Shown here: positions 2,018-64,000 of the stretch, one piece after another
How positions within the stretch are numbered: position 1 is the first letter of the stretch
How the letters are laid out: each line of letters begins with the position of its first letter
Source: Caenorhabditis remanei
Taxonomy: Eukaryota > Nematoda > Chromadorea > Rhabditida > Rhabditidae
Length of the DNA stretch: 64,000 nucleotides
Direction of reading: 5' to 3'
NCBI RefSeq assembly: GCF_010183535.1
Contig: NC_071331.1
Coordinates: forward strand, 1-64,000
Position numbers and translations under genes: made by a program
The notes under the pieces: generated by a model
Databases searched by the model: none
Seen by the model: the letters and a program-made list of their open reading frames with translations, nothing else
Told to the model about the DNA's origin: nothing

Positions 2018-4489
2018 TTAGGCTCAGGCGCAGGCTCTGCCTGTGCCATTTGGGCTGTGACTTTTTGACTTTTCGAACCGATTCGGGATTTTATTATGCC
2101 AATTTGTTCCCCTGAGGGGGGGACCAGCGTCCACCAAAAATGAGCCCTGGTGGCCTGCTCCGAGCTGAGCTCTGAGAGCTCAAAGTTGGCTCAAAAAAAA
2201 CTTATATCGCCCATAACTTTTTTGTACGTGAATATTTTTCGGAAATTTTTTGTGATGAGTTAGAGCTTAGAGTTGTGCATCTGATGATGATATAGAATTT
2301 TTTTAAATCAATCGATAATCAATCGATAATCGAGATCTAGACTTTCAAAATGGCCGCATTCAAAATTTAACAATTTGTTTCGAATAAGATTCTGGACTTA
2401 AGTACGTCTCTTTTAGTAGTATCTTGTGAACTAGGGTGCATGACACCTCGTCCTTTAGTTTTTTTTTTTTTTGATTTTTAGCAAAAAATTTTCAGTTTTT
2501 GAATTTTTTGAGGGTGTCAAAGAGGAGGGACCGGTTTGGTCAGTACTAACAAAATGTAGCCCTACTTGGCAGCTATCACTTGATATGTTGATCTCCCCGG
2601 TGCGACACCTCTGAGCTGAGTTATGAACGTTTGAGTGTGCTCAGGCTCAGCTTAGGCTTAGCTTAGGCTTAGCTTAGGCTTAGCTTCGGCTTAGGCTTAA
2701 CACAAAAGTGTCGATAATCTAAATTTTTATGTTTGTATCGGATAGAGAATTGTTTGTTGAGTACCGTAAAAATATTTTAAATTTTTTTCTGACTGGTCCC
2801 TCTGAGTTAGACCCATATGTAGTTTTTGGTGAACTTTGTCTTATAACTGGTTTCGTTTTGTACTTCAAAGGTCAGTTGTTTCATGCCTACCTAACACTTC
2901 AGAAGGGCTATTTTATGCATTTGACTATGACCCTCTAGCTCTTATATGAACTGAGATCGAAGGGAGATAAGGTCGAAAACTCGAAAATGGTCAAAATTCA
3001 AGGTTGGATATTTGATGTTTTTTCAAAGCCATTTTGTTCAGCGTGTTTTATTTGATCGAAAAACATAAATATTTTAGAAAATTTCGTATCGAAAAAAATT
3101 TTTTTGGACTTTGAAAAATTTTGAAAATTTTAAATTTTTTTATTTTTTTGAAATAAAAATACAGCTTCATGTATTTGAGTTTGACAATTATTTCACTTTA
3201 TAGAATATTCTACGAGCTATTTGATGCACTTTAATTTGACCCAAGGGCTCTCATATGAACGGTGATCAAAGCAAGATAAGATCGAAAAATAGACATTAGA
3301 AGTGTGACATTTCACAGTTAGTTAAGCAATAGTCGTGGCGCGAAGCGTCACTACTCAGATTGCGTTTACGGTGACGCTGAGCGGAGCGAAGCGTCACCGT
3401 GAAGGCTACAAATATGAAACATACAACTCATTTTTTCACTTTTTACACATTTATACACACTTTTTTTCACTTTTTTACGTATTTTCACACTTTTCACACT
3501 TTTTTTCATTTTTTCAACTTTTTTTCCTTTACTTTGTTTCATACTGAAACAAAACTTGATTTGGGCTGCACTCGGGAATCTCTCGGCGCCATGAAAGACA
3601 GAAAATTCTTTCAAAAACTCAGGCGCCATGAAAGACAGAAAATTCTTTCAAAAACTCAAACGCCATGAAAGACAGAAAATTCTTTCAAAAACTCAGGCGC
3701 CATGAAAGACAGAAAATTCTTTTTCACACTTCTTGTGTAAAATTACAAAAAATTGCCCAAATTCGGCGAGCCTATTTTTTACGGGTATATAGAGTTTTTT
3801 GGTGATTAATTCTATGCATGTATCATTTCATTTTAAACTTGGTCAAGGGAATTCAAGAAACGTCAGTTAAAAAGAAAGTTACTGTTACTTGTGTTTTAAA
3901 TTATATCCAAAGATTTTAGATTCTTACAAGTGACTGTAGCTGAAAATCTTTATAAATTTTTTAATTTATGAGTGTGCAGTCCCATAACATAAATACAATT
4001 GCGTTTCGTTTGAAACAGTAGTATAAGAAATTATTAAAATGTGTTAATAAAGGCGCGAAGCGCCTTTATTTTAACACTTTTAATGATTTCTTATACTATT
4101 GTTTTGAACGGAAGGCCACAAAAAAGAATGAGTCTATCAAACTTGAATTTTATAGAGAATAATATTATTTTGAACAGAAACAGTGGATTTTATTACAATT
4201 TAGATATTTTTCGAACCACGCGAGCCGAATTTGGGCAATTTTTTGTAATTTTACACAAGAAGTGTGAAAAAGAATTTTCTGTCTTTCATGGCGCCTGAGT
4301 TTTTGAAAGAATTTTCTGTCTTTCATGGCGTTTGAGTTTTTGAAAGAATTTTCTGTCTTTCATGGCGCCTGAGTTTTTGAAAGAATTTTCTGTCTTTCAT
4401 GGCGCCGAGAGATTCCCGAGTGCAGCCCAAATCAAGTTTTGTTTCAGTATGAAACAAAGTAAAGGAAAAAAAGTTGAAAAAATGAAAAA
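2018..4489 (+). repeat. Telomere-linked unit U1 (type I)
   Basis: Starts with one TTAGGC (2018-2023), then the GC hairpin module from 2024. Inside are (ATCGATA)-type repeats near 2310-2335, a degenerate TTAGGC/TTAGC stretch at about 2640-2697, and a 10-bp-stem hairpin at 3369-3399 (CGGTGACGCT/AGCGTCACCG). The right third is an interrupted palindrome: left arm about 3504-3768, inner hairpin about 4018-4101, right arm 4224-4489. Both arms carry the same AAACGCC/GGCGTTT variant. The right arm ends directly in TTAGGC. No credible coding region was found. Confidence 0.9.
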
Positions 4490-5145
4490 TTAGGCTTAGG
4501 CTTAGAGCTAGGAAGCCTACGCGTAGACCCAACCCTCTCACTTTTTTTGGCTGCCAGCCTAATTTTTAGGCTTAGGCTTAGGCTAAGGGAGCACAAGCCC
4601 AAGCTTAGGGGTCAATAAAGCGTGAGCCTGGCCCTAGGGTGCCTCCTTGAGCCCTTTTTTCAGCATTTCTGTTTCATCTCAGATGAAAAAATCCCAAATG
4701 TTCGATTTTTTTAAAAACACCTCATTTTCCCCACTTTTTTGGCTGCCAGCCTAATTTTTTTCCGCGATTTCTAAGAAACCTAAGCCTGAGAGATTGGAAC
4801 AAATTTACACAATGTGCAGATTCCACCATTTCACGCCGAAAACAACTTTTACACGCGGAAAGTCCACAAACTGACAAGAAAAGTCCACCAACTGACACGG
4901 GAAAGTCACTTTCCGCACACGGAAAATGCTTCCAACATTTCTTAGGCTTAGGCTTCTTGGAAACCCGTCCCCCGGCGAACCAATCCACGCGAATTCCACC
5001 ATTTGCACCACGCGAATTCCACCATTTTGAACCACGCGAATTCCACCATTTTGGCGCGTTTTTTTGTTTTGCAGTGCACAAAATCAGCATTTTCTTAGGC
5101 TTAGGCTCAGGCGCAGGCTTCTGCCTGCGCCATTTGGGCTGAGGC
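4490..5145 (+). repeat. Mosaic block B1 (0.68-kb repeat)
   Basis: A block of fragments joined by short TTAGGC runs (4490-4501, 4566-4583, 4942-4953, 5095-5106). Segments lie at about 4502-4565, 4584-4941, 4954-5094 and 5107-5145. The third contains three copies of a 23-bp CCACGCGAATTCCACCATTT-type repeat. The last is the GC hairpin module alone, followed at once by TTAGGC. Long frames with KPKP or LRLR runs are only translations of telomere repeat. Confidence 0.85.
5107..5145 (+). repeat. Minimal GC hairpin module
   Basis: A 35-40 bp module with perfect 9-bp arms GGCGCAGGC/GCCTGCGCC, flanked on both sides by TTAGGC. It is the same sequence that begins every unit of the array, here standing alone. 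Further free-standing copies start at 5786, 9029 and 9708. Confidence 0.85.
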
Positions 5146-5181
5146 TTAGGCTTAGGCTTAGGCTTAGGCTTAGGCTTAGGC
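5146..5181 (+). repeat. TTAGGC telomeric run (6 copies)
   Basis: Perfect TTAGGC run between the minimal hairpin module and block B2. It is interstitial in this window. Confidence 0.97.
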
Positions 5182-5824
5182 TTAGAGCTAGGAAGCCTAC
5201 GCGTAGACCCAACCCTCTCACTTTTTTTGGCTGCCAGCCTAATTTTTAGGCTTAGGCTTAGGCTAAGGGAGCACAAGCCCAAGCTTAGGGGTCAATAAAG
5301 CGTGAGCCTGGCCCTAGGGTGCCTCCTTGAGCCCTTTTTTCAGCATTTCTGTTTCATCTCAGATGAAAAAATCCCAAATGTTCGATTTTTTTAAAAACAC
5401 CTCATTTTCCCCACTTTTTTGGCTGCCAGCCTAATTTTTTCCGCGATTTCTAAGAAACCTAAGCCTGAGAGATTGGAACAAATTTACACAATGTGCAGAT
5501 TCCACCATTTCACGCCGAAAACAACTTTTACACGCGGAAAGTCCACAAACTGACAAGAAAAGTCCACCAACTGACACGGGAAAGTCACTTTCCGCACACG
5601 GAAAATGCTTCCAACATTTCTTAGGCTTAGGCTTCTTGGAAACCCGTCCCCCGGCGAACCAATCCACGCGAATTCCACCATTTGCACCACGCGAATTCCA
5701 CCATTTTGAACCACGCGAATTCCACCATTTTGGCGCGTTTTTTTGTTTTGCAGTGCACAAAATCAGCATTTTCTTAGGCTTAGGCTCAGGCGCAGGCTTC
5801 TGCCTGCGCCATTTGGGCTGAGGC
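5182..5824 (+). repeat. Mosaic block B2
   Basis: Second copy of the B1 mosaic, 679 bp downstream, with the same internal fragments and TTAGGC joints. It ends in another minimal hairpin module (5786-5824) followed by a long telomeric run. Confidence 0.85.
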
Positions 5825-5944
5825 TTAGGCTTAGGCTTAGGCTTAGGCTTAGGCTTAGGCTTAGAGCTAGGCTTAGGCTTAGGCTTAGGCTTAGGCTTAG
5901 GCTTAGGCTTAGGCTTAGGCTTAGGCTTAGGCTTAGGCTTAGGC
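5825..5944 (+). repeat. TTAGGC telomeric run (about 20 copies, one variant)
   Basis: 120 bp of TTAGGC with one TTAGAGCTAGGC interruption near 5861. That interruption matches the first bases of the B blocks (TTAGAGCTAGG), so it could be a very short block start that was re-healed. Confidence 0.97.
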
Positions 5945-8411
5945 TCAGGCGCAGGCTCTGCCTGTGCCATTTGGGCTGTGACTTTTTGACTTTTCGAACC
6001 GATTCGGGATTTTATTATGCCAATTTGTTCCCCTGAGGGGGGGACCAGCGTCCACCAAAAATGAGCCCTGGTGGCCTGCTCCGAGCTGAGCTCTGAGAGC
6101 TCAAAGTTGGCTCAAAAAAAACTTATATCGCCCATAACTTTTTTGTACGTGAATATTTTTCGGAAATTTTTTTGTGATGAGTTAGAGCTTAGAGTTGTGC
6201 ATCTGATGATGATATAGAATTTTTTTAAATCAATCGATAATCAATCGATAATCGAGATCTAGACTTTCAAAATGGCCGCATTCAAAATTTAACAATTTGT
6301 TTCGAATAAGATTCTGGACTTAAGTACGTCTCTTTTAGTAGTATCTTGTGAACTAGGGTGCATGACACCTCGTCCTTTAGTTTTTTTTTTTTTGATTTTT
6401 AGCAAAAAATTTTCAGTTTTTGAATTTTTTGAGGGTGTCAAAGAGGAGGGACCGGTTTGGTCAGTACTAACAAAATGTAGCCCTACTTGGCAGCTATCAC
6501 TTGATATGTTGATCTCCCCGGTGCGACACCTCTGAGCTGAGTTATGAACGTTTGAGTGTGCTCAGGCTCAGCTTAGGCTTAGCTTAGGCTTAGCTTAGGC
6601 TTAGCTTCGGCTTAGGCTTAACACAAAAGTGTCGATAATCTAAATTTTTATGTTTGTATCGGATAGAGAATTGTTTGTTGAGTACCGTAAAAATATTTTA
6701 AATTTTTTTCTGACTGGTCCCTCTGAGTTAGACCCATATGTAGTTTTTGGTGAACTTTGTCTTATAACTGGTTTCGTTTTGTACTTCAAAGGTCAGTTGT
6801 TTCATGCCTACCTAACACTTCAGAAGGGCTATTTTATGCATTTGACTATGACCCTCTAGCTCTTATATGAACTGAGATCGAAGGGAGATAAGGTCGAAAA
6901 CTCGAAAATGGTCAAAATTCAAGGTTGGATATTTGATGTTTTTTCAAAGCCATTTTGTTCAGCGTGTTTTATTTGATCGAAAAACATAAATATTTTAGAA
7001 AATTTCGTATCGAAAAAAATTTTTTTGGACTTTGAAAAATTTTGAAAATTTTAAATTTTTTTATTTTTTTGAAATAAAAAATACAGCTTCATGTATTTGA
7101 GTTTGACAATTATTTCACTTTATAGAATATTCTACGAGCTATTTGATGCACTTTAATTTGACCCAAGGGCTCTCATATGAACGGTGATCAAAGCAAGATA
7201 AGATCGAAAAATAGACATTAGAAGTGTGACATTTCACAGTTAGTTAAGCAATAGTCGTGGCGCGAAGCGTCACTACTCAGATTGCGTTTACGGTGACGCT
7301 GAGCGGAGCGAAGCGTCACCGTGAAGGCTACAAATATGAAACATACAACTCATTTTTTCACTTTTTACACATTTATACACACTTTTTTTCACTTTTTTAC
7401 GTATTTTCACACTTTTCACACTTTTTTTCATTTTTTCAACTTTTTTTCCTTTACTTTGTTTCATACTGAAACAAAACTTGATTTGGGCTGCACTCGGGAA
7501 TCTCTCGGCGCCATGAAAGACAGAAAATTCTTTCAAAAACTCAGGCGCCATGAAAGACAGAAAATTCTTTCAAAAACTCAAACGCCATGAAAGACAGAAA
7601 ATTCTTTCAAAAACTCAGGCGCCATGAAAGACAGAAAATTCTTTTTCACACTTCTTGTGTAAAATTACAAAAAATTGCCCAAATTCGGCGAGCCTATTTT
7701 TTACGGGTATATAGAGTTTTTTGGTGATTAATTCTATGCATGTATCATTTCATTTTAAACTTGGTCAAGGGAATTCAAGAAACGTCAGTTAAAAAGAAAG
7801 TTACTGTTACTTGTGTTTTAAATTATATCCAAAGATTTTAGATTCTTACAAGTGACTGTAGCTGAAAATCTTTATAAATTTTTTAATTTATGAGTGTGCA
7901 GTCCCATAACATAAATACAATTGCGTTTCGTTTGAAACAGTAGTATAAGAAATTATTAAAATGTGTTAATAAAGGCGCGAAGCGCCTTTATTTTAACACT
8001 TTTAATGATTTCTTATACTATTGTTTTGAACGGAAGGCCACAAAAAAGAATGAGTCTATCAAACTTGAATTTTATAGAGAATAATATTATTTTGAACAGA
8101 AACAGTGGATTTTATTACAATTTAGATATTTTTCGAACCACGCGAGCCGAATTTGGGCAATTTTTTGTAATTTTACACAAGAAGTGTGAAAAAGAATTTT
8201 CTGTCTTTCATGGCGCCTGAGTTTTTGAAAGAATTTTCTGTCTTTCATGGCGTTTGAGTTTTTGAAAGAATTTTCTGTCTTTCATGGCGCCTGAGTTTTT
8301 GAAAGAATTTTCTGTCTTTCATGGCGCCGAGAGATTCCCGAGTGCAGCCCAAATCAAGTTTTGTTTCAGTATGAAACAAAGTAAAGGAAAAAAAGTTGAA
8401 AAAATGAAAAA
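5945..8411 (+). repeat. Telomere-linked unit U2 (type I)
   Basis: Near-identical to U1, about 3922 bp further on, so U1+B1+B2 and U2+B3+B4 form a 3.92-kb tandem repeat. Palindrome: left arm about 7426-7690, inner hairpin about 7940-8023, right arm about 8146-8411, ending in TTAGGC at the same point as U1. No credible gene. Confidence 0.9.
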
Positions 8412-9866: not shown

Positions 9867-12418
9867 TCAGGCGCAGGCTCTGCCTGTGCCATTTGGGCTG
9901 TGACTTTTTGACTTTTCGAACCGATTCGGGATTTTATTATGCCAATTTGTTCCCCTGAGGGGGGGACCAGCGTCCACCAAAAATGAGCCCTGGTGGCCTG
10001 CTCCGAGCTGAGCTCTGAGAGCTCAAAGTTGGCTCAAAAAAAACTTATATCGCCCATAACTTTTTTGTACGTGAATATTTTTCGGAAATTTTTTTGTGAT
10101 GAGTTAGAGCTTAGAGTTGTGCATCTGATGATGATATAGAATTTTTTTAAATCAATCGATAATCAATCGATAATCGAGATCTAGACTTTCAAAATGGCCG
10201 CATTCAAAATTTAACAATTTGTTTCGAATAAGATTCTGGACTTAAGTACGTCTCTTTTAGTAGTATCTTGTGAACTAGGGTGCATGACACCTCGTCCTTT
10301 AGTTTTTTTTTTTTTTGATTTTTAGCAAAAAATTTTCAGTTTTTGAATTTTTTGAGGGTGTCAAAGAGGAGGGACCGGTTTGGTCAGTACTAACAAAATG
10401 TAGCCCTACTTGGCAGCTATCACTTGATATGTTGATCTCCCCGGTGCGACACCTCTGAGCTGAGTTATGAACGTTTGAGTGTGCTCAGGCTCAGCTTAGG
10501 CTTAGCTTAGGCTTAGCTTAGGCTTAGCTTCGGCTTAGGCTTAACACAAAAGTGTCGATAATCTAAATTTTTATGTTTGTATCGGATAGAGAATTGTTTG
10601 TTGAGTACCGTAAAAATATTTTAAATTTTTTTCTGACTGGTCCCTCTGAGTTAGACCCATATGTAGTTTTTGGTGAACTTTGTCTTATAACTGGTTTCGT
10701 TTTGTACTTCAAAGGTCAGTTGTTTCATGCCTACCTAACACTTCAGAAGGGCTATTTTATGCATTTGACTATGACCCTCTAGCTCTTATATGAACTGAGA
10801 TCGAAGGGAGATAAGGTCGAAAACTCGAAAATGGTCAAAATTCAAGGTTGGATATTTGATGTTTTTTCAAAGCCATTTTGTTCAGCGTGTTTTATTTGAT
10901 CGAAAAACATAAATATTTTAGAAAATTTCGTATCGAAAAAAATTTTTTTGGACTTTGAAAAATTTTGAAAATTTTAAATTTTTTTATTTTTTTGAAATAA
11001 AAAATACAGCTTCATGTATTTGAGTTTGACAATTATTTCACTTTATAGAATATTCTACGAGCTATTTGATGCACTTTAATTTGACCCAAGGGCTCTCATA
11101 TGAACGGTGATCAAAGCAAGATAAGATCGAAAAATAGACATTAGAAGTGTGACATTTCACAGTTAGTTAAGCAATAGTCGTGGCGCGAAGCGTCACTACT
11201 CAGATTGCGTTTACGGTGACGCTGAGCGGAGCGAAGCGTCACCGTGAAGGCTACAAATATGAAACATACAACTCATTTTTTCACTTTTTACACATTTATA
11301 CACACTTTTTTTCACTTTTTTACGTATTTTCACACTTTTCACACTTTTTTTCATTTTTTCAACTTTTTTTCCTTTACTTTGTTTCATACTGAAACAAAAC
11401 TTGATTTGGGCTGCACTCGGGAATCTCTCGGCGCCATGAAAGACAGAAAATTCTTTCAAAAACTCAGGCGCCATGAAAGACAGAAAATTCTTTCAAAAAC
11501 TCAAACGCCATGAAAGACAGAAAATTCTTTCAAAAACTCAGGCGCCATGAAAGACAGAAAATTCTTTTTCACACTTCTTGTGTAAAATTACAAAAAATTG
11601 CCCAAATTCGGCGAGCCTATTTTTTACGGGTATATAGAGTTTTTTGGTGATTAATTCTATGCATGTATCATTTCATTTTAAACTTGGTCAAGGGAATTCA
11701 AGAAACGTCAGTTAAAAAGAAAGTTACTGTTACTTGTGTTTTAAATTATATCCAAAGATTTTAGATTCTTACAAGTGACTGTAGCTGAAAATCTTTATAA
11801 ATTTTTTAATTTATGAGTGTGCAGTCCCATAACATAAATACAATTGCGTTTCGTTTGAAACAGTAGTATAAGAAATTATTAAAATGTGTTAATAAAGGCG
11901 CGAAGCGCCTTTATTTTAACACTTTTAATGATTTCTTATACTATTGTTTTGAACGGAAGGCCACAAAAAAGAATGAGTCTATCAAACTTGAATTTTATAG
12001 AGAATAATATTATTTTGAACAGAAACAGTGGATTTTATTACAATTTAGATATTTTTCGAACCACGCGAGCCGAATTTGGGCAATTTTTTGTAATTTTACA
12101 CAAGAAGTGTGAAAAAGAATTTTCTGTCTTTCATGGCGCCTGAGTTTTTGAAAGAATTTTCTGTCTTTCATGGCGTTTGAGTTTTTGAAAGAATTTTCTG
12201 TCTTTCATGGCGCCTGAGTTTTTGAAAGAATTTTCTGTCTTTCATGGCGCCGAGAGATTCCCGAGTGCAGCCCAAATCAAGTTTTGTTTCAGTATGAAAC
12301 AAAGTAAAGGAAAAAAAGTTGAAAAAATGAAAAAAAGTGTGAAAAGTGTGAAAATACGTAAAAAAGTGAAAAAAAGTGTGTATAAATGTGTAAAAAGTGA
12401 AAAAATGAGTTGTATGTT
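9867..12418 (+). repeat. Telomere-linked unit U3 (type I)
   Basis: Third copy of the U1/U2 sequence, but the right palindrome arm is longer. Left arm is about 11262-11613, inner hairpin about 11863-11946, right arm about 12069-12418. The right arm ends GAGTTGTATGTT and joins TTAGGC. U1 and U2 stop about 85 bp earlier in the same arm and continue into B blocks, which U3 lacks. Confidence 0.9.
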
Positions 12419-12460: not shown

Positions 12461-14937
12461 TCAGGCGCAGGCTTCTGCCTGTGCCATTTGGGCTGTGACT
12501 TTTTGACTTTTCGAACCGATTCGGGATTTTATTATGCCAATTTGTTCCCCTGAGGGGGGGACCAGCGTCCACCAAAAATGAGCCCTGGTGGCCTGCTCCG
12601 AGCTGAGCTCTGAGAGCTCAAAGTCGGCTCAAAAAAAACTTATATCGCCCATAACTTTTTTGTACGTGAATATTTTTCGGAAATTTTTTTGTGATGAGTT
12701 AGAGCTTAGAGTTGTGCATCTGGTGATGATATAGAATTTTTCTAAATCAATCGATAATAGGTCGATAATCGAGATCTAGACTTTCAAAATGGCCGCATTC
12801 AAAATTTAACATGAGTTTTCAAATAAGATTCTGAACTTAAGTACGTCTCTGTTAGACGCAACTTTTGAACTAGGGTGCATGAAATTCCATCTGGCCAATT
12901 TTTTTTTTTTTGAATTTTAGTGAAAAATTTTTAGTTTTTGAATTTTTTGAGGGGGTCAAAGAGGAGGGACCGGTTTGATCAGTACTAAGAAAATGTAGCC
13001 CTACTTGGCAGCTATCACCTGATATGTTGATCTCCCCGGTGCGACACCTCTGAGCTGAGTTATGAACGTCTGAGTGTGCTCAGGCCTAGCTTAGGCTTAG
13101 CTTAGGCTTAGCTTAGGCTTAGCTTCGGCTTAGGCTTAACGCAAAAGTGTCGATAATCTGAATTTTTATAATTGTATCGGATAGAAAATTGTTTGGTGAG
13201 TACTGTAAAAATATTTTGAATTTTTTTCTGACCGGTCCCTGTAAGTTAGACCCATTTATAGTTTTTGGTGAACTTTGTCTTATAACTGGTTTCGTTTTGT
13301 ACTTTGAAGGTCAGTTATTTTATGTTTACCTAGAAGATTGAAAGGGCTATTTTATGCATTTTATCATGACCCTCTAGCTATTATATGAACTGAGATCGAA
13401 GGGAGATAAGGTCAAAAACTCGAAAATGGTCAAAATTCGAAGTTGGATATTTGATGTTTTTTCAAGGCCATTATGTTCAGCGTGTTTTATTTGATCGAAA
13501 AACATAAATATTTTAGAAAATTTCGTAACGAAAGAATTTTTTTTTGGACTTTGAAAAATTTTGAAAAATTTATTTTTTTTGGTATTTTCGAAATTAAAAA
13601 TACAGCTTCATATACATGAGTTTGACAATTATTTTACTTTATTGAGTATTTTACAAGCTATTTGATGCACTTTAATTTGACTCGAATGCTCTCATATGAA
13701 CGGAAGTCAAAGCGAGATAAGATCGAGAAATAGACACTAGAAGGGTGACATTTCACAATAAGTTAAGCAATAGTCGTGGCGCAAAGCGTCACTACTCAGA
13801 TTGCGTTAACGGTGACGCTGAGCGGAGCGAAGCGTCACCGTGAAGGCTACAAATATGAAACATACAACTCATTTTTTCACTTTTTACACACTTTTACACA
13901 CTTTTTTTTTCACTTTTTCACATATTTTCACACTTTTTTTACTTTTTCTACTTTTTTTCCTTTAATTTGTTTCATACTGAAACAAAACTTGATTTGGGCT
14001 GCACTCGGGAGTCTCTCGGCGCCATGAAAGACAGAAAATTCTTTCAGAATCTCAGGCGCCATGAAAGACAGAAAATTCTTTCAAAAACTCAGGCGCCATG
14101 AAAGACAGAAAATTCTTTTGTTATACTTCTTGTGTGAAATCACAAAAAATTGCCCAAATTCGGCGAGCCTATTTTTTACGGGTATATAGAGTTTTTTGGT
14201 GATTAATCATATGCATGTATCATTTCAATTTAAACTTGGTCATAGGAATTTAAGAAATGTCAGTTAAAAAGAAACTTACTAATACTTGTGTTTTAAATTA
14301 TATCCAAAGATTCTAGATTTTTTTTGTGACTGTAGCTGTAAATCTTTGTAAGTTTTTTGATTTCTACGTGTCTCAGTATGCAGTCCCATAACAGGAATAC
14401 AATTGCGTTTCGTTTGAAACAATAGTATAAGAAATTATTAAAATGTGTTAATAAAGGCGCGAAGCGCCTTTATTATGACACTTTTAATGATTTCTTATAC
14501 TATTGTTTTGAACGGAAGGCCACAAAAAAGAATGAGTCTATCAAACTTAAATTTTTTAGAGAATAATATTATTTTGAACAGAAACAGTGGATTTTATTAC
14601 AATTTAGATACTTTTTGAAACACGCGAGCCGAATTTGGGCAATTTTTTGTGATTTCACACAAGAAGTATAACAAAAGAATTTTCTGTCTTTCATGGCGCC
14701 TGAGTTTTTGAAAGAATTTTCTGTCTTTCATGGCGCCTGAGATTCTGAAAGAATTTTCTGTCTTTCATGGCGCCGAGAGACTCCCGAGTGCAGCCCAAAT
14801 CAAGTTTTGTTTCAGTATGAAACAAATTAAAGGAAAAAAAGTAGAAAAAGTAAAAAAAGTGTGAAAATATGTGAAAAAGTGAAAAAAAAAGTGTGTAAAA
14901 GTGTGTAAAAAGTGAAAAAATGAGTTGTATGTTTCAT
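12461..14937 (+). repeat. Telomere-linked unit U4 (type I)
   Basis: Diverged type I unit. Palindrome: left arm about 13855-14169, inner hairpin 14421-14504, right arm about 14628-14937, ending GTATGTTTCAT then TTAGGC. Both arms carry a variant not seen in other units, TTTAATTTG on the left and CAAATTAAA on the right. GC hairpin (GGTGACGCT/AGCGTCACC) near 13810-13840. No credible gene. Confidence 0.9.
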
Positions 14938-38119: not shown

Positions 38120-38120
38120 C

Positions 38121-53314: not shown

Positions 53315-53496
53315 GAAAATGGACACTGCAAAGAATTTCTGTGCAAAAGGTTGAATATGCCATTATATTTTGTGTTTTGGGAGAAAACTGGAGATACTTG
53401 ACTTTTACATATTGGTGAACTATAACTTTAATTTTTTGCAAAATACACAGATAGTAGAAAAAAAGTTATATAAGGTATACAATTGCGTTTCGTTTG

Positions 53497-53586
53497 AAAC
53501 AATAGTATAAGAAATCATTAAAAGTGTCATAATGAAGGCGCTCCGCGCCTTCATTAACACATTTTAATAATTTCTTATACTATTGT
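53497..53586 (-). repeat. Inner hairpin of U9, in flipped orientation
   Basis: The central hairpin of the palindrome reads GGCGCTCCGCGCC here. U6, U8 and U12 read GGCGCGGAGCGCC. The stem differences (AAAGTGTCATAAT before, ATTAACACATTTT after) are exactly reversed relative to those units, while the flanks keep the normal orientation. Confidence 0.85.
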
Positions 53587-54070
53587 TTTGAACGGAAGGC
53601 CACAAACACGAATGAGTCTATTAAACTCGAAAATGGAGGAATTAGCTTGATGTTTAACAAAACCAGTGTATTTTATTGGAATTTGGTGGTTTTTTGTATC
53701 ACACGAGCCGAATTTGGGCAATTTATTGTGAAATCTCATACAAAAGTAAATAAAAAAGAATTTTCTAACTTTCATAGCGTCCGAGCTTTTCAGGGAATTT
53801 TCTAACTTTCATAGCGTCCGAGCTTTTCAAGGAATTTTCTGTCTTTCATGGCGTCCGAGCTTTTCAAGGAATTTTCTGTCTTTCATGGCGTCGGAGAAAG
53901 CGAGCGAAGCGAGCTTTTCATATAGGGTTGTTGAGCCCAAATCAAGTTTTGTTTCGTTCCGAAACTAGAAAAGTGGAAAAAAGTGTGAAAAAATGTGAAA
54001 AATATGAGAAAATGAGTGTAAAAGTGTGAAAAACGTGAAAAAAGTGAAAAAAATGAGTTGTACGTACTGT

Positions 54071-54088: not shown

Positions 54089-56468
54089 TCAGGCGCAGGC
54101 TCTGCCTGTGCCATTTGGGCTGAGGCTAAATGACTTTTCGAACCGATTCGGGATTTTATTATGCCAATTTGTTCCCCTGAGGGGGGGACCAGCGTCCACG
54201 AAAAATGAGCCCTGGTGGCCTGCTCTGAGCTGAGCTCTGAGAGCTCAAAGTCGGCTCAAAAAAAACTTATATTGCTTCTAACTTTTTTGTACGTAAATAT
54301 TTTTCGGAAATTTTTTTGTGATGAGTTAGAGCTTAGAGTTGTGCACCCGATGAAGATATAGAAATTTTTTAAATCAATCGATAATCGATCGATAATCGAG
54401 ATCTAGACTTTCAAAATGGCCGCATTCAAAATTGTGAGAAGCGATTTTGATTAAACTTTAAACTTAAGTACGTCTCTAGTAGACGCAACTTTTGAACTAG
54501 GGTGCATGGTCCCTCGTCCTGGGGATTTTTTTTTTTTTGATTTTTAGCAAAAAATTTTCAGTTTTTGAATTTTTTGAAGGGGTCATAGAGGAGGGACCGG
54601 TTTGGTCAGTACTAACAAAATGTAGCCCTACTTGGCAGCTATCACCTGATATGTTGTTCTCCGCGGTGCGACACCTCTGAGCTGAGTTATGAACGTTTGA
54701 GTGTGCTCAGGCTCAGCTTAGGCTTAGCTTAGGCTTAGCTTCGGCTTAGGCTTAACGCAAAAGTGTCGATAATCTGAATTTTTATGATTGTATCGGATAG
54801 AGAATTGTTTGGTGAGTATCGTAAAAATATTTTAAATTTTTTTCTGACCGGTCCCTGTAAGTTAGACCCATATGTAGTTTTTGGTGAACTTTGTTTTATA
54901 ACTGGTTTCGTTTTGTACTTTGAAGGTCAGTTGTTTCATGCCTACCTAACACTTGAGAAGGGCTATTTTATGCATTTTATTATGATCCTCTAGCTCTTAT
55001 ATGAACTGAGATCGAAGGGAGATAAGGTCGAAAACTCGAAAATGGTCAAAATTCAAGGTTGGATATTTGATGTTTTTTCAAAGCCATTTTGTTCAGCGTG
55101 TTTTATTTGATCGAAAAACAGAAATATTTTAGAAAATTTCGTATCGAAAAATTTTTTTTTTGGACTTTGAAAAATTTTGAAAAATTTAATTTTTTTGGTT
55201 TTTTCGAAATTAAAAATACAGCTTCATATACATGAGTTTGACAATTATTTTACTTTATTAAGTATGTAACGAGCTATTTGATGCACTTTAATTTGACTCG
55301 AATGCTCTCATATGAACGGAAGTCAAAGCGAGATAAGATCGAGAAATAGACACTAGAAGGGTGACATTTCACAATAAGTTAAGCAATAGTCGTGGCGCGA
55401 AGCGTCACTACTCAGATTGCGTTTACGGTGACGCTGAGCGGAGCGAAGCGTCACCGTGAAGGCTACAAATATGAAACATACAACTCATTTTTTCACTTTT
55501 TACACATTTATACACACTTTTTTTCACTTTTTTACGTATTTTCACACTTTTCACATTTTTTTTTTCATTTTTTCAACTTTTTTTCCTTTACTTTGTTTCA
55601 TACTGAAACAAAACTTGATTTGGGCTGCACTCGGGAGTCTCTCGGCGCCATGAAAGACAGAAAATTCATTCAGAAACTCAGGCGCCATGAAAGACAGAAA
55701 ATTCTTTCAAAAACTCAGGCGCCATGAAAGACAGAAAATTCTTTTTCACACTTCTTGTGTAAAATTACAAAAAATTGCCCAAATTCGGCGAGCCTATTTT
55801 TTACGGGTATATAGAGTTTTTTGGTGATTAATTCTATGCATGTATCATTTCATTTTAAACTTGGTCAAAGGAATTCAAGAAACGTCAGTTAAAAAGAAAG
55901 TTACTGTTACTTGTGTTTTAAATTATATCCAAAGATTTTAGATTCTTACAAGTGACTGTAGCTGTAAATCTTTATAAATTTTTTTAATTTATGAGTGTGC
56001 AGTCCCATAACATAAATACAATTGCGTTTCGTTTGAAACAGTAGTATAAGAAATTATTAAAATGTGTTAATAAAGGCGCGAAGCGCCTTTATTTTAACAC
56101 TTTTAATGATTTCTTATACTATTGTTTTGAACGGAAGGCCACAAAAAAGAATGAGTCTATCAAACTTGAATTTTATAGAGAATAATATTATTTTGAACAG
56201 AAACAGTGGATTTTATTACAATTTAGATATTTTTCGAACCACGCGAGCCGAATTTGGGCAATTTTTTGTAATTTTACACAAGAAGTGTGAAAAAGAATTT
56301 TCTGTCTTTCATGGCGCCTGAGTTTTTGAAAGAATTTTCTGTCTTTCATGGCGCCTGAGTTTCTGAATGAATTTTCTGTCTTTCATGGCGCCGAGAGACT
56401 CCCGAGTGCAGCCCAAATCAAGTTTTGTTTCAGTATGAAACAAAGTAAAGGAAAAAAAGTTGAAAAAA
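54089..56468 (+). repeat. Telomere-linked unit U10 (type I)
   Basis: Type I unit with a small change after the module (AGGCTAAATGACTTTTCG). Left arm about 55568-55790, inner hairpin 56036-56127, right arm about 56246-56468, ending GTTGAAAAAA then TTAGGC. Private variants ATTCATTCAG (left) and CTGAATGAAT (right) are in both arms. Confidence 0.9.
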
Positions 56469-56480: not shown

Positions 56481-58822
56481 TCAGGCGCAGGCTCTGCCTG
56501 TGCCATTTGGGCTGTGACTTTTTGACTTTTCGAACCGATTCGCGATTTTATTATGCCAATTTGTTCCCCTGAGGGGGGGACCAGCGTCCACCAAAAATGA
56601 GCCCTGGTGGGCTGCTCCGAGCCGAGCTCTGAGAGCTCAAAGTCGGCTCAAAAAAAACTTATATCGCCTCTAACTTTTTTGTACGTGAATATTTTTCGGG
56701 AATTTTTTTGTGATGAGTTAGAGCTTAGAGTTGTGCATCTGATGATAATATAGAATTTTTTAAAATCAATCGATAATCGATCGATAATTGAGATCTAGAC
56801 TTTCAAAATGGCCGCATTCAAAATTTAACAAGAGTTTTCGAATAAGATTCTGGACTTAAGTACGTCTCTCGTAGACGCAACTTTTGAATTAGGGTGCATG
56901 GTCCCTCGTCCTGGGGATTTTTTTTTTTTTGATTTTTAGCAAAAAATTTTCAGTTTTTGAATTTTTTGAGGGGGTCAAAGAGGAGGGACCGGTTTGGTCA
57001 GTACTAACAAAATGTAGCCCTACTTGGCAGCTATCACCTGATATGTTGATCTCCCCGGTGCGACACCTCTGAGCTGAGTTATGAACGTTTGAGTGTGCTC
57101 AGGCTCAGCTTAGGCTTAGCTTAGGCTTAGCTTAGGCTTAGCTTAGGCTTAGGCTTGACGCAAAAGTGTCGATAATCTGAATTTTTATGATTGTATCGGA
57201 TAGAGAATTGTTTGGTGAGTATCGTAAAAATATTTTAAATTTTTTTCTGACCGGTCCCTGTAAGTTAGACCCATATATAGTTTTTGGTGAACTTTGTTTT
57301 ATAACTGGTTTCGTTTTGTACTTTGAAGGTCAGTTGTTTCATGATTACTTAGAACGTTGAAAGGGCTTTATTATGCATTTAATAATGACCCTCTATCTTT
57401 TATATGAACTGAGATCGAAGGGAGATAAGGTCGAAAACTCGAAAATGGTCAAAATTCAAGGTTGGATATTTGATGTTTTTTCAAAGCCATTTTGTTCAGC
57501 GTGTTTTATTTGATCGAAAAACATAAATATTTTAGAAAATTTCGTATCGAAAAATTTTTTTTTTGGACTTTGAAAAATTTTGAAAAATTTAATTTTTTTG
57601 GTTTTTTCGAAATTAAAAATACAGCTTCATATACATGAGTTTGACAATTATTTTACTTTATTGAGTATGTAACGAGCTATTTGATGCACTTTAATTTGAC
57701 TCGAATGCTCTCATATGAACGGAAGTCAAAGCGAGATAAGATCGAGAAATAGACACTAGAAGGGTGACATTTCACAATAAGTTAAGCAATAGTCGTGGCG
57801 CGAAGCGTCACTACTCAGATTGCGTTTACGGTGACGCTGAGCGGAGCGAAGCGTCACCGTGAAGGCTACAAATATGAAACATACAACTCATTTTTTCACT
57901 TTTTACACACTTTTACACACTTTTTTTTTCACTTTTTCTACTTTTTTTCCTTCCCTTTGTTTCATACTGAAACAAAACTTGATTTGGGCTGCACTCGGGA
58001 GTCTCTCGGCGCCATGAAAGACAGAAAATTCTTTCAGAATATCAGGCGCCATGAAAGACAGAAAATTCTTTTGAAAACTCAGGCGCCATGAAAGACAGAA
58101 AATTCTTTTGTTATACTTCTTGTGTGAAATCACAAAAAATTGCCCAAATTCGGCGAGCCTATTTTTTACGGGTATATAGAGTTTTTTGGTGATTAATAAT
58201 ATGCATGTATCATTTCAATTTAAACTTGGTCATAGAAATTTAAGAAATGTCAGTTAAAAAGAAAGTTACTAATACTTGTGTTTTAAGTTATATCCAAAAA
58301 TTCTAGATATTCACGATTGACTCTAGCTGTAAATATTTACAATTTTGTGAATTTCTACGTGTATGACTATGCAGTCCCATAACAGGAATACAATTGCGTT
58401 TCGTTTGAAACAATAGTATAAGAAATTATTGAAATGTGTTAATAAAGGCGCGAAGCGCCTTTATTATGACACTTTTAATGATTTCTTATACTATTGTTTT
58501 AAATGGAAGGCCACAAAACAGAATGAGTCTATCAAACTTGAATTTTTTAGAAAATAATATTATTTTGAACAGAAACAGTGCATATTATGACAATTCAGAT
58601 ATTTTTTGGACCACGCGAGCCGAATTTGGGCAATTTTTTGTGATTTCACACAAGAAGTATAACAAAAGAATTTTCTGTCTTTCATGGCGCCTGAGTTTTC
58701 AAAAGAATTTTCTGTCTTTCATGGCGCCTGATATTCTGAAAGAATTTTCTGTCTTTCATGGCGCCGAGAGACTCCCGAGTGCAGCCCAAATCAAGTTTTG
58801 TTTCAGTATGAAACAAAGGGAA
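56481..58822 (+). repeat. Telomere-linked unit U11 (copy of U7)
   Basis: Near-identical to U7 at +36296/36297 bp. Left arm about 57952-58157, inner hairpin 58408-58500, right arm about 58618-58822. The right arm stops after CAAAGGGA, about 7 bp short of the U7 end, and joins TTAGGC. Confidence 0.9.
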
Positions 58823-58840: not shown

Positions 58841-61800
58841 TCAGGCGCAGGCTTCTGCCTGCGCCATTTGGGCTGAGGCGCGGACCCCCAAAATTTATTT
58901 CCGAGATTTTATGATTGGATCGGATAGCCCTTTGAAAATGAGGAAATATACCCTTTTTAGATTTTTGAAAAAATTAGGCCCCGCCCACTTATATCGATTT
59001 GAAAAAAATCGATAACTCACTAAACTCTTCGTAACTTTTTTCGGAGTGGAGCTTTTGGGGACTTTTTTTTTGATTGATATTAGAATTAGACGCTCTATCT
59101 GGAAAAAGTACATACGTCAGATGAAAAAATCGATAATCAATCGATAATCGATTTTTTGAAAAAAAAACTTTTTTTTCTTAGGGATTTTCCGGAGACCTAT
59201 ACCATTCGATAGTCCCAAAGGTGTACTATATAACCACCAAAGTTGGTAGGGGCCTCACATTTCCACTTCGTGAAAAATCGATAATAAGTTTTTTTCACTA
59301 AAACTGCTATAACTTTTGACTGATAAGAGGTAGATGAAAAGTGTTTTGATATTTCGATAGAGAATTAAGAGTTTGTACCCACGCTATAAAAAAGTTTGAA
59401 AAATATTGATTTTTGGAGCAAGTAGGTGCTCCGGAAAAAAATCGAAAAAAAATTGTCCAGTTCTATGGTTATAAAACCTATACCATTCGATAGAGCATAA
59501 AAAAGTACCCCGGAAAACATATACCACTAAGGGCTCTCAACGTCAATTTTCGAGAAAAAAATTTTCAAAGTTTTTTTTCTGAAAATTTTTGAAAATTTTT
59601 TTTTGTTATTGATTTTTTGAGGGGGTCATACTAACATTTTGTAAATTAAAATAGTTTGTCCCCCTAGAGATTTTAAAGGGCTACATTTTGGAACTTATTA
59701 TGTCCCGATACCTTTGACCGGAGCCGAGATCTAAGCGAGATAAGGTCATGGCTCAAAAAAAATCGGAATTTCAAAATGGGAATTTCGGAATTTTTTCAAC
59801 GGCATATTATTCAGCGTGATTAGTTTAGTCGATTTATCTAAAAAAATATCGAATTTTCGACTCGGAATATTTTTTTTTTGGACTTGTAAAATTTTTCAAA
59901 ATTTTCAAAATTTTGGTTTTTTTGAAATTTCAAAGGGGGTTTTGCAGATATGATTTTCAAACTTGTTTCTCTTCCTAGAGAATTTTAAGGGCTATTATAT
60001 GCACTTTAGTATGACCCGATACCTCTGACCGGAGCCGAGATCTAAGCGAGATAAGGTCATGGCTCAAAAAAAATCGGATTTTCAAAATGGGAATTTCGGA
60101 ATTTTTTCAACGGCATATTATTCAGCGTAATTAGTTTAGTCGATTTATCTGAAAACATTTTGAAATTTCGACTCGGAATATTTTTTTTGGACTTGTAAAA
60201 TTTTTCAAAATTTTCAAAATTTTGATTTTTTCGAAATTTTACACGGGGTTTTGTAGGTATGATTTTCAAACTTGTTTTTCTTTTTAGAGAATTTCAAGGG
60301 CTTTTCTATGCACTTGAGTTTGACCCGATACCTCTGACCGGAGCCGAGATCTAACCGAGATAAGGTCATGGCTCAAAAATAATCGGAATTTCAAAGTGCG
60401 AATTTCCAAGTTTTTTCAACGCCATATTATTTAGCGTGCTTTGTTTAGTCGAACTATCAGAAAAAATTTCAACTTTTCAATTGGGAAAATTTTTTTTTTG
60501 GACTTGTAAAATTTTTCAAATTTTTCAAAATTTTGGTTTTTTTGAAGTTTCACATACAGTTTTACAGGTATGATTTTCAAACTTGTTTCTCTTCCTAGAC
60601 AATTTTAAGGGCTATTATACGCACTTTAGTTTGACCCGATACCTCTGACCGGAGCCGAGATCTAAGCAAGATAAGGTCGAAATCTGGAAAAAGTCAAATA
60701 TTCAAAGTGCGAATTTTGTAATTTTTTTAATGCCAGATTGTTCATCGTGCTTTGTTTAGTCGAACTATTTAAATACTTTTTGAAATTTGACATCCAAAGT
60801 TTCTAATTTCACCTTATCAAGAGTGTGAACGACTAGCACTACGGGGGGAGGGGAAGGTCAAGTCATCAATCACTCTAACAACACCACCTGTCACTTTGTG
60901 TGGGAAAATATGACTAGATAACGATCAGGTCATCCATTCTCACGAAAACATCTGTCTTTTACGTTTTTCACACTTTTACACGCATTTTCTCATTTTTTCC
61001 ACATTTTTTCACACTTAAACTCATTTTTACATACTTTTTTCCACTTTTCTAGTTTCGGAACGAAACAAAACTTGATTTGGGCTCAACAACCCTATATTAA
61101 AAGCTCGCTTCGCTCGCTTTCTCCGACGCCATGAAAGACAGAAAATTCCTTGAAAAGCTCGGACGCCATGAAAGTTAGAAAATTCCTTGAAAAGCTCGGA
61201 CGCCATGAAAGTTAGAAAATTCTTTTTTATTCACTTTTGTATGAGATTTCACAATAAATTGCCCAAATTCGGCGAGCTCTTGTCAGGGTATCTTGTATTT
61301 CTGCCAGTGTGACTTAGAAAATGGATACTGCAAAAAACGTCAGTGCAAAAAGTTAGAAATGTCATCATATCTTGTGTTTTGAAAAAAAACTAGAAATACT
61401 TGAACCTCATATATTAGTGAACTATAAATTTAATTTTTTGCAATATACATCACATAGTAGTAAAAAATGTTAAATAAAATATACAATTGCGTTTCGTTCA
61501 AAACAATAGTATAAGAAATTATTAAAATGTGTTAATGAAGGCGCGGAGCGCCTTCATTATGACACTTTTAATGATTTCTTATACTATTGTTTTGAACGGA
61601 AGGCCACAAACATGAATGAGTCTATTGCACTGTAAAAATGAAGGAAATAGCTTTATTTTTAATAAAAACAGTGTATTTAATAGGAATCTAGTGATTTTTT
61701 GTATCACACGAGCCGAATTTGGGCAATTTATTGTGAAATCTCATACAAAAGTGAATAAAAAAGAATTTTCTAACTTTCATGGCGTCCGAGCTTTTCAAGG

Positions 61801-62229
61801 AATTTTCTAACTTTCATGGCGTCCGAGCTTTTCAAGGAATTTTCTGTCTTTCATGGCGTCGGAGAAAGCGAGCGAAGCGAGCTTTTAATATAGGGTTGTT
61901 GAGCCCAAATCAAGTTTTGTTTCGTTCCGAAACTAGAAAAGTGGAAAAAAGTATGTAAAAATGAGTTTAAGTGTGAAAAAATGTGGAAAAAATGAGAAAA
62001 TGCGTGTAAAAGTGTGAAAAACGTAAAAGACAGATGTTTTCGTGAGAATGGATGACCTGATCGTTATCTAGTCATATTTTCCCACACAAAGTGACAGGTG
62101 GTGTTGTTAGAGTGATTGATGACTTGACCTTCCCCTCCCCCCGTAGTGCTAGTCGTTCACACTCTTGATAAGGTGAAATTAGAAACTTTGGATGTCAAAT
62201 TTCAAAAAGTATTTAAATAGTTCGACTAA
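58841..62229 (+). repeat. Telomere-linked unit U12 (type II, uninterrupted)
   Basis: The first kilobase matches U9 from 25211. It holds about 3.5 monomers of the ~310-bp tandem (59640-60755) and then the longest palindrome of the window: left arm 60756-61277, inner hairpin 61501-61593, right arm 61712-62229. The arm runs past the usual palindrome into the type II sequence and ends TAGTTCGACTAA before TTAGGC. No Helitron or Maverick, so it shows the empty sites for both. Confidence 0.9.
59640..60755. repeat. ~310-bp tandem array in U12
   Basis: Monomers marked by GAGCCGAGATCTAA at about 59722, 60027, 60343 and 60652. Each carries TATTATTCAGCGTG-like and TTTTTTGGACTTGTAAAA segments. Non-coding. 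Confidence 0.85.
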
Positions 62230-62241
62230 TTAGGCTTAGGC
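62230..62241 (+). repeat. TTAGGC telomeric run (2 copies)
   Basis: Joins U12 to U13. Confidence 0.93.
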
Positions 62242-64000
62242 TCAGGCGCAGGCTCTGCCTGTGCCATTTGGGCTGTGACTTTTTGACTTTTCGAACCGAT
62301 TCGCGATTTTATTATGCCAATTTGTTCCCCTGAGGGGGGGACCAGCGTCCACCAAAAATGAGCCCTGGTGGGCTGCTCCGAGCCGAGCTCTGAGAGCTCA
62401 AAGTCGGCTCAAAAAAAACTTATATCGCCTCTAACTTTTTTGTACGTGAATATTTTTCGGGAATTTTTTTGTGATGAGTTAGAGCTTAGAGTTGTGCATC
62501 TGATGATAATATAGAATTTTTTAAAATCAATCGATAATCGATCGATAATTGAGATCTAGACTTTCAAAATGGCCGCATTCAAAATTTAACAAGAGTTTTC
62601 GAATAAGATTCTGGACTTAAGTACGTCTCTCGTAGACGCAACTTTTGAATTAGGGTGCATGGTCCCTCGTCCTGGGGATTTTTTTTTTTTTGATTTTTAG
62701 CAAAAAATTTTCAGTTTTTGAATTTTTTGAGGGGGTCAAAGAGGAGGGACCGGTTTGGTCAGTACTAACAAAATGTAGCCCTACTTGGCAGCTATCACCT
62801 GATATGTTGATCTCCCCGGTGCGACACCTCTGAGCTGAGTTATGAACGTTTGAGTGTGCTCAGGCTCAGCTTAGGCTTAGCTTAGGCTTAGCTTAGGCTT
62901 AGCTTAGGCTTAGGCTTGACGCAAAAGTGTCGATAATCTGAATTTTTATGATTGTATCGGATAGAGAATTGTTTGGTGAGTATCGTAAAAATATTTTAAA
63001 TTTTTTTCTGACCGGTCCCTGTAAGTTAGACCCATATATAGTTTTTGGTGAACTTTGTTTTATAACTGGTTTCGTTTTGTACTTTGAAGGTCAGTTGTTT
63101 CATGATTACTTAGAACGTTGAAAGGGCTTTATTATGCATTTAATAATGACCCTCTATCTTTTATATGAACTGAGATCGAAGGGAGATAAGGTCGAAAACT
63201 CGAAAATGGTCAAAATTCAAGGTTGGATATTTGATGTTTTTTCAAAGCCATTTTGTTCAGCGTGTTTTATTTGATCGAAAAACATAAATATTTTAGAAAA
63301 TTTCGTATCGAAAAATTTTTTTTTTGGACTTTGAAAAATTTTGAAAAATTTAATTTTTTTGGTTTTTTCGAAATTAAAAATACAGCTTCATATACATGAG
63401 TTTGACAATTATTTTACTTTATTGAGTATGTAACGAGCTATTTGATGCACTTTAATTTGACTCGAATGCTCTCATATGAACGGAAGTCAAAGCGAGATAA
63501 GATCGAGAAATAGACACTAGAAGGGTGACATTTCACAATAAGTTAAGCAATAGTCGTGGCGCGAAGCGTCACTACTCAGATTGCGTTTACGGTGACGCTG
63601 AGCGGAGCGAAGCGTCACCGTGAAGGCTACAAATATGAAACATACAACTCATTTTTTCACTTTTTACACACTTTTACACACTTTTTTTTTCACTTTTTCT
63701 ACTTTTTTTCCTTCCCTTTGTTTCATACTGAAACAAAACTTGATTTGGGCTGCACTCGGGAGTCTCTCGGCGCCATGAAAGACAGAAAATTCTTTCAGAA
63801 TATCAGGCGCCATGAAAGACAGAAAATTCTTTTGAAAACTCAGGCGCCATGAAAGACAGAAAATTCTTTTGTTATACTTCTTGTGTGAAATCACAAAAAA
63901 TTGCCCAAATTCGGCGAGCCTATTTTTTACGGGTATATAGAGTTTTTTGGTGATTAATAATATGCATGTATCATTTCAATTTAAACTTGGTCATAGAAAT
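62242..64000 (+). repeat. Telomere-linked unit U13 (copy of U7/U11, cut by window end)
   Basis: Matches U11 at +5761 bp as far as the window goes, including the CCTTCCCTTTG variant in the left arm. The inner hairpin and right arm lie beyond 64000. Confidence 0.9.

Follow-up and report, generated by a model that had tools for sequence, protein, structure and literature searches.

Arrays of Helitron-like units with fold-back ends and TTAGGC junctions at chromosome ends of Caenorhabditis remanei

The telomeric retroelements HeT-A, TART and TAHRE of Drosophila build a one-way array at the chromosome end in which each element has one fixed and one variable side, and no telomerase repeat is present. 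Among nematodes, Helitrons are already known to reside at chromosome ends. In the parts of the published accounts drawn on here, helitron-like helicase genes of Oscheius tipulae occur almost exclusively in chromosome-end extensions (in 11 of the 12, with one match elsewhere), the right end of X has three sequential helitron-like components and the elements score poorly as ordinary helitrons (PMC8022731). In the same partial sense, Helitrons are enriched at the ends of 5 of 26 non-eliminating Caenorhabditis species, including C. elegans, and programmed DNA elimination, a cause that we considered for the array and set aside, is reported to be absent from the other Caenorhabditis species examined (PMC13370393). 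Here we describe the first 64,000 bases ("the window") of contig C4 (NC_071331.1; 25,790,997 bases) of the Caenorhabditis remanei genome (130,466,896 bases in 186 contigs, to which we refer by handles such as C1 and C18). The window holds an array of units separated by runs of the telomere repeat TTAGGC, and these units are probably non-autonomous members of a telomere-restricted Helitron lineage, with an HUH/Y2 Rep and a PIF1 helicase, whose ends are made by snap-back copying.

Like the O. tipulae elements, the elements studied here are Helitron-like and apparently restricted to ends. The O. tipulae elements differ in sitting in end extensions present in a minority of copies, and the parts of that account drawn on describe neither a joining phase nor snap-back ends nor arrays of short derivatives (PMC8022731). 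The end enrichment in Caenorhabditis is statistical and is given there without element anatomy or mechanism (PMC13370393), and although Helitrons are on record from the chromosome ends of several nematodes, these parts give no mechanism by which they are joined there. The Terminons (Athena) of bdelloids are giant telomeric elements, some with Rep, which likewise form head-to-tail arrays cut by telomere repeats but carry reverse transcriptase and attach by their 3' end, according to the portion used (PMC6431247). The TALT1 and TALT2 sequences of C. elegans are similar in being telomere-like-flanked blocks stacked at ends and different in being host DNA that spread in telomerase mutants, again from part of the source (PMC4595603); the words palindrom-, inverted and helitron do not occur in the TALT text. 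In contrast to the Drosophila elements, the units described here are probably a DNA transposon with telomere repeat between its copies. In the rolling-hairpin replication of parvoviruses the terminal palindrome folds on itself to prime synthesis of the second strand, and the likeness of our array to this process is one of analogy only. The unit-end anatomy reported below is not described in the parts drawn on of PMC8022731, PMC13370393, PMC9071541, PMC12921731, PMC4595603 and PMC6431247, and other literature, including subscription literature, may hold it.

Thirteen unit heads are present in the window (at 2024, 5945, 9867, 12461, 15039, 17528, 20185, 22610, 25211, 54089, 56481, 58841 and 62242), all on the + strand and each directly 3' of TTAGGC, in agreement with the count and orientation given by a first-pass annotation made from the letters alone. 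That annotation had proposed a fixed left junction, which we find as TTAGGC|TCAGGCGC..., and variable right ends fused straight to the repeat; all 12 right junctions that it named are present with TTAGGC as the next bases. The appearance of the units also supports its idea of repeated additions onto a TTAGGC end at a fixed junction. Eleven of the window units belong to class A (2.3-2.6 kb) and two, at 25211 and 58841, to class B (2.7-4.1 kb with 310-bp internal repeats, U9 being longer), while a class C is found on C33 and C53. The features of the window are listed below, with arm1 and arm2 denoting the inner and the TTAGGC-facing arm of the palindrome at the right end.

1..2017, no strand: 366-bp satellite, 5.5 copies (TRF), taken as the proximal side of the array
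2024..4489, + strand: U1, class A, probable non-autonomous Helitron unit; arms 3502-3767 and 4224-4489, 266 nt, perfect
4490..5944, + strand: TTAGGC, a subtelomeric piece and two head-only fragments (5107, 5786) with TTAGGC runs
5945..8411, + strand: U2, class A, tandem duplicate of U1; arms 7424-7689 and 8146-8411
9867..12418, + strand: U3, class A; arms 11263-11612 and 12069-12418
12461..14937, + strand: U4, class A; arm2 310 nt, perfect, to 14937
15039..17401, + strand: U5, class A; arms 16482-16709 and 17174-17401, 1 mismatch in 228
17528..20130, + strand: U6, class A; arms 18964-19333 and 19761-20130, 370 nt, perfect
20185..22531, + strand: U7, class A; arm2 210 nt, perfect
20185..20223, + strand: example of a head, a GC hairpin straight after TTAGGC that starts with TC in classes A and B
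22322..22531, + strand: example of an arm2, with inner start GCCGAATTTGGGCAA, hairpin GTTTCAGTATGAAAC and then the variable end
22610..25108, + strand: U8, class A; arms 24152-24416 and 24844-25108
25211..54070, + strand: U9, class B head with longer body; arms 31500-31863 and 53707-54070, 364 nt, perfect
31903..53315, no strand: Maverick/Polinton in the 22-kb spacer of U9; inverted repeats 31903-32498 and 52786-53315, limits approximate
54089..56468, + strand: U10, class A with variant head flank; arm2 222 nt, perfect
56481..58822, + strand: U11, class A; arm2 204 nt, perfect
58841..62229, + strand: U12, class B; arms 60756-61273 and 61712-62229, 518 nt, perfect
62242..64000, + strand: U13, class A, cut at the window edge; ends at C4:64615, arm2 236 nt

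The right ends of the units carry most of the information on how the array was made. An unselected test took in all 92 runs of at least two TTAGGC present in the fetched arrays. An inverted arm is anchored at 35 of them, and at 33 this arm measures at least 100 nt; for comparison, arms of at least 100 nt were found at 62 of 660 random anchor points. Most of the remaining 57 runs are accounted for by second runs within a telomere block, internal repeats, head-only pieces, a chromosome flank, ends cut by contig starts and U9, whose spacer is beyond the reach of the script. For scoring of the arms, 36 unit ends were chosen for carrying a palindrome within the fetched DNA. Left out of this set were C3:17877207 and C129:3202 (truncated, without palindrome and with GGC before TTAGGC), C1:17218866 (no arm), C18:2137, C53:969 and C101:313 (any palindrome cut by the contig start), C33:15296 and 15329 (arms of 124 and 157 nt, anchored within a different palindrome) and C33:17750, C53:24102 and 28700, a stub on C1 and the head-only pieces of C4.

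At 34 of the 36 scored ends arm2 reaches TTAGGC within 1 base (33 by script, plus U5, which the script paired with the arm of a neighbour and for which a separate arm analysis shows the arm reaching TTAGGC), and the remaining two miss it by 3 and 19 bases. The arms are perfect in 30 of the 36. Arm2 is 202-727 nt long with a mean of 340 (33 ends), and the spacer measures 427-464 nt in classes A and B, 303 nt in class C, 498 nt in a second family, 888 nt in a coding copy and 21,843 nt in U9, where it is the site of the Maverick. The inner start of arm2 is one motif common to classes A and B, so that the inner boundary is fixed and the outer is not. This motif is exact in 31 of 49 segments (U5 is one base off), the scan having passed over the 18 segments without the exact motif or without a palindrome.

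Arm2 repeats, in inverted orientation, the arm1 of its own unit. Among 28 units there are 14 distinct inner arm1 sequences with a mean difference of 20%, whereas the difference between arm1 and arm2 of the same unit, over 195 nt, is nil in 27 of 28, and all 2548 of 2548 unit-by-variable-column cells are mirrored from arm1 to arm2. The comparison took 28 of the 36 ends, omitting C4:8412, which duplicates 4490, as well as C90:14614, the second family on C1 and five units with imperfect arms, and 27 of 28 therefore applies to the cleaner ends. The mirrored variants imply that arm2 was either copied from, or corrected to, the unit's own arm1, and copying is the simpler reading because the outer end of arm2 varies and meets TTAGGC. 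These data indicate snap-back copying from a fixed turn point. The variable end, which the first-pass annotation had read as the place where copying stopped, is not simply that: it is an inverted self-copy that runs from a constant turn point, and the TTAGGC after it starts in one phase. Self-priming on a small inner palindrome of the spacer was considered and dropped, the spacer beside the arms not being complementary. Arms of 200-730 nt around a near-constant spacer do look like the long terminal inverted repeats (TIRs) of a cut-and-paste or foldback DNA transposon that targets the telomere and keeps its repeats identical by gene conversion. However, the arms stop at TTAGGC without a common outer end, the inner boundary being the fixed one, and no copy was seen in which the outer TIR end is constant and target duplications are present. 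Because a common outer end is lacking, we reject the cut-and-paste reading as very improbable.

A 3' hairpin, GTTTC..GAAAC, is present at 32 of the 36 ends, with its mirror copy in arm1. It has the form GTTTCAGTATGAAAC or, in other classes, GTTTCGTTCCGAAAC, the two being related by one compensatory (covarying) pair. At 32 of the 36 ends the unit stops 5-485 nt past the hairpin, the shortest 5-14 nt past, and at C129:5921 the end falls inside the hairpin. The hairpin looks like a rolling-circle terminator that would be overrun by the snap-back copy.

Larger fold-backs were also seen. C129 (1-18187) is an inverted repeat with 8.9-kb arms, 99.85% identical, and a 414-nt spacer, built around the turn point of the units; one arm contains a unit with its head as well as TTAGGC and the unit before it, and the other contains all these reversed. 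It could be a snap-back that ran on or an artefact of sequencing or assembly, and we give it little weight. C63 was dropped as a second long fold-back, its head-to-head units being only 95% alike. A further palindrome with TTAGGC-containing repeats, at L013:4243-5340 (C33), resembles the 3' end of the second Helitron family on C1.

The onset of the repeat at the right ends is in one phase. With the start of the repeat defined as the first full TTAGGC of the run, the preceding base or bases are C at 4 of 36 ends, GC at 3 of 36 and GGC at 1 of 36. Since C precedes TTAGGC at just 4 of 36 ends, the repeat does not start in random phase, although a shared extra T would be indistinguishable. The onset is mostly without microhomology, as in ...TTAG|TTAGGC and ...GTG|TTAGGC, where telomerase healing guided by pairing would be expected to continue with GC. 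The truncated, palindrome-less ends at C3:17877207 and C129:3202 carry in-phase bases, and these two cases are too few for a test.

At the left side, a looser head pattern finds 51 heads in the fetched DNA, of which 50 follow TTAGGC in one phase. The genome has 51 exact copies of TTAGGCTCAGGCGCAGGCT, of which 46 are forward and 5 reverse, with 5 copies on C1, 5 on C3, 20 on C4 and 21 on eight small contigs, and the 30 exact heads on C1, C3 and C4 are all forward. A cut at C|T would leave both junctions in one phase, and the junctions do agree, with GGC| on the left and |TTAGGC on the right. Together with fold-back ends that ignore microhomology, this would fit Helitron insertion into an existing telomere tract at C|TTAGGC, with both flanks being old telomere. 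This account overlaps our preferred one and is the less likely of the two, though not a negligible competitor. It sits poorly with the one-way orientation of the exact heads on C1, C3 and C4 and with the lone head that lacks a preceding TTAGGC, at C1:17240760, which is joined directly to a 101-nt class B stub (17240659-17240760); the remainder of the stub's unit does not resume after the joined unit.

A candidate for the mobilising gene was found on C18, where a class B head at 9233 is followed by 1.69 kb of class B sequence (88-91% identical) and then by + strand frames. A Rep frame on the strand of the head matches Helitron_like_N (6.8e-27) and DUF6570 (1e-20), and 3' of it, near the contig end, the palindrome module starts. 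The open reading frame (ORF) contains QHVHCVLW and NYITAYTTK, which we take to be the HUH motif and the two-tyrosine (Y2) motif, respectively. In the database protein P0001, 99% identical to the C18 Rep, Helitron_like_N, DUF6570 and PIF1 occur in one protein. C90 has the same coding 3' end as C18, followed by perfect 514-nt arms reaching TTAGGC. Coding and short units thus share both ends, through the head and module start of C18 and the right end of C90. Copies of the Rep ORF at 98-100% identity and without stops are present on the unplaced contigs C18, C90, C116, C129 and C119, four of the five also with unit heads. Since this Rep gene is preceded by a matching head and followed by the beginning of the end module, the 2.3-4 kb units are most simply non-autonomous, telomere-restricted Helitron derivatives. 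Helitron membership is well supported at the protein level.

In the whole genome (43 matches), relatives of the Rep at 33-51% identity occur on C53, in the C1 array and in the first 460 kb of C3, and matches in chromosome interiors are only 26-32% identical. Those at 69-72 kb, 125-128 kb, 270-276 kb and 458 kb of C3 (33-45%, several with stops) lie at the opposite end of that chromosome from its array. Database relatives were found in C. tropicalis (55%), C. brenneri (37%), C. remanei (41%) and C. briggsae (60% over a fifth), and in two fishes at 26-27% identity. The second Helitron family, at C1 17219002-17230740, has a Y2-like DYICGYTTK, a PIF1 match at 3.6e-18 and a perfect 229-nt arm ending at TTAGGC. 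Frames resembling UCH (ubiquitin hydrolase) lie near the telomeric Helitron helicase at L015:4980-6242, L019:796-2310 and L012:2845-4319, the first two above the Pfam cut-off and the third below it; a UCH match on C18 is also below the cut-off. At C53:3230-23459, an innexin-like frame and Helitron coding sequence lie between two + heads, perhaps as a long fold-back or another insertion.

The presence of the Rep gene bears on two other accounts. The first-pass annotation had compared the array with retroelement arrays, and telomeric target-primed reverse transcription, as in HeT-A, Athena/Terminon and TRAS/SART, would make the fixed left side the RNA 3' end and the variable right side a 5' truncation. 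One orientation with a fixed proximal and a variable distal end is what this would give, the 101-nt stub joined to a full unit on C1 (17240659-17240760) resembles template jumping, and Terminons attach via a 3' fold beside telomere repeat, as the consulted part of the source has it (PMC6431247). However, a reverse transcriptase domain was found in 0 of 30 ORFs (the longer frames in fetched parts of the window and array contigs, 9 of the 30 lying in the Maverick), where Rep and helicase domains do occur. The long copy with the matching head carries a Helitron Rep instead. Ends outside the palindrome are few, arm2 is a mirror of the arm1 of its own unit, and the C18 Rep frame reads from the head, which makes the fixed end the 5' end. 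We consider reverse transcription a scarcely credible origin of the array, and the retroelement analogy is not supported.

The second account is recombination of the type known from alternative lengthening of telomeres (ALT) and TALT, in which a TTAGGC end invades telomere-like repeat beside a template and break-induced replication follows without a transposase. Copying of segments is evident in the array. The units are ~78-100% identical over long stretches, with many kilobase stretches of at least 90%, and their likeness is therefore not due to chance. U7 has five more copies at ~100% identity on C4 (two), C3 (two) and C1 (one), and near-identical units on C1, C3 and C4 are what such recombination would leave. 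So is the tandem duplication that U1 and U2 resemble: their common right end and the ~1.45 kb layout that follows each of them (4490..5944 recurring at 8412-9866) point to one event and a ~3.9 kb tandem duplication. C. elegans telomerase mutants spread a telomere-like-flanked block to their ends, in the part of the work drawn on (PMC4595603). However, array copying should move several units and TTAGGC runs jointly, whereas the units here spread singly, with a fixed left base and differing right ends. U6 and U8 are 99.96% identical with different ends, U8 being 104 bp shorter; U7, U11 and U13 are 99.94-100% identical (U11 to U7 99.96%) with different ends; U3 is 99.9% identical to U1 and U2 and its right end lies 85 bp further on; and the right ends of the near-100% copies of U7 on C1, C3 and C4 mostly differ. 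Neither self-mirrored arms nor a locked phase is predicted by recombination, and a Helitron Rep gene lies between matching head and end-module start. ALT-type priming on a template beside telomere repeat, as put forward in the first-pass annotation, is thus unsupported, and we regard a purely recombinational origin as improbable.

Several observations place the arrays at chromosome ends, as the first-pass annotation had suspected. The arrays on C1 and C3 run into terminal telomere repeat, of 99 TTAGGC repeats at the C1 contig end and of ~105 in a broken run at the C3 contig end, and the units of both point outward; there is no N run on C3 from 17,855,001 to the contig end. Just inside the C3 array lie 2.6 kb of which the first 1.76 kb matches satellite at the C6 start, on C62 and on C176; a dispersed repeat is matched by the last 0.5 kb. 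Matching units thus exist at further chromosome ends of the genome. A genome-wide search with a single class A query, U7 (class B was not used as query), gave 436 matches; those listed, a part of the total, lie at the right ends of C1 and C3, at the C4 start and on small unplaced contigs, and no internal locus with target-site duplications, which the first-pass annotation had named as evidence against its idea, is among them. (TTAGGC)4 occurs 929 times forward and 2 times reverse in the genome, which suggests that left chromosome ends are apparently unassembled into telomere. In the window, TTAGGC points away from the C4 start, the contig piece holding it stops within a unit at a 100-N gap (C4:68,582-68,681), and its satellite is 70-73% similar to one at ~17.210-17.215 Mb of C1, inward of the C1 array across a gap. 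The window is probably a chromosome-end array on a contig that was placed inverted.

Putting these results together, we propose that a Rep-helicase supplied by a long coding copy in the genome acts on a single-stranded element and joins its 5' end, with the GC-hairpin head TCAGGCGC..., to the 3' end of the telomeric G strand (...TTAGGC-3'). The free 3' end of the element would then fold onto its 3' inverted repeat and be extended, copying its own sequence backwards from the fixed turn point for 200-730 nt; the polymerase and the order of steps are part of the proposal. TTAGGC would follow in one phase, either in the default register of telomerase or by Rep rejoining a G strand cut at C|TTAGGC, and the next element would join the new end, such that arrays would grow outward in one orientation. 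For the attachment step we lean somewhat towards end joining, as the C1 stub suggests, over insertion at C|TTAGGC, as the phase on both sides suggests. A bolder version, which we hold only tentatively, is that this Helitron lineage is an obligate telomeric element whose Rep targets an exposed TTAGGC 3' end without cutting and whose own snap-back hairpin makes the terminal single strand double-stranded. If true, it would be a DNA-transposon counterpart of the telomeric retroelements and a third way, besides telomerase and recombination, to extend ends.

Several points weigh against the proposal of telomere-joined Helitrons with snap-back ends. The 36 scored ends were selected for a palindrome, and palindrome-less ends exist (the 39-nt head-only pieces, the 101-nt C1 stub, the last unit of C3 with 795 nt, and C129:3202); no anchored arm is present at C1:17218866, a family-2-like end. 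Six of the 36 arms are imperfect, namely U5 with 1 mismatch, C33:25198 (250/251), C33:28903 (258/261), C63:6278 (301/308), C90:18178 (408/414) and C101:7471 (716/725). Gene conversion between inherited arms could give the fixed turn point and the perfect inner 200 nt, but would not account for outer ends meeting TTAGGC at differing places. On C18, PIF1 (0.0027) and Pif1_2B (0.00034) are below the Pfam cut-offs and the first frame is cut by the locus end. No single contig spans the coding copy from head to right junction, C18 stopping inside the palindrome and C90 having been examined without its upstream part; on C53 the Helitron coding sequence and the heads are on opposite strands. Of the canonical features of Helitron ends, the 3' CTRR is absent, the 36 ends stopping at many different bases, and so is the A|T target, the flanks being GGC|TC on the left and |TTAGGC on the right, where a duplication is invisible in the telomere repeat; the 3' terminal hairpin, also a canonical feature, is present. 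The 5' start, canonically TC, is TC in classes A and B but TA in class C and GC in family 2, the start base being ambiguous beside TTAGGC except at C1:17240760. A normal nematode telomere is longer than the 2-64 repeats of the interstitial TTAGGC runs, and simple end joining does not explain this shortness. The duplicates U1 and U2, and the common right end of U13 and C3:17870685, show that whole segments are copied too, so recombination also shapes the arrays. Finally, it is scaffolding across a gap that puts the window at the C4 left end, and its telomere direction is inward there, for which reason we take its contig as probably inverted.

The stacked Helitron copies at some C. remanei ends suggest a DNA-transposon way of adding DNA to chromosome ends. 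The array is a readable record of how Helitrons may reach and stay at chromosome ends and connects rolling-circle transposition with end replication in a way that can be tested. Subtelomeric expansion and inverted repeats would have a natural source in such an array, which may also be a root for the chromosome-end elements of worms that trim their ends during development. Perfect palindromes at worm telomeres need not mean assembly error.

Two smaller features of the window lie beside the units. Head-only pieces of ~39 nt, followed by TTAGGC runs, are found at 5107, 5786, 9029, 9708 and C4:67796, embedded in another subtelomeric repeat of ~0.6 kb. The Maverick in the U9 spacer contains PolB in two frames, an integrase with a chromodomain, an A32-like ATPase and a PIF1-like helicase frame.

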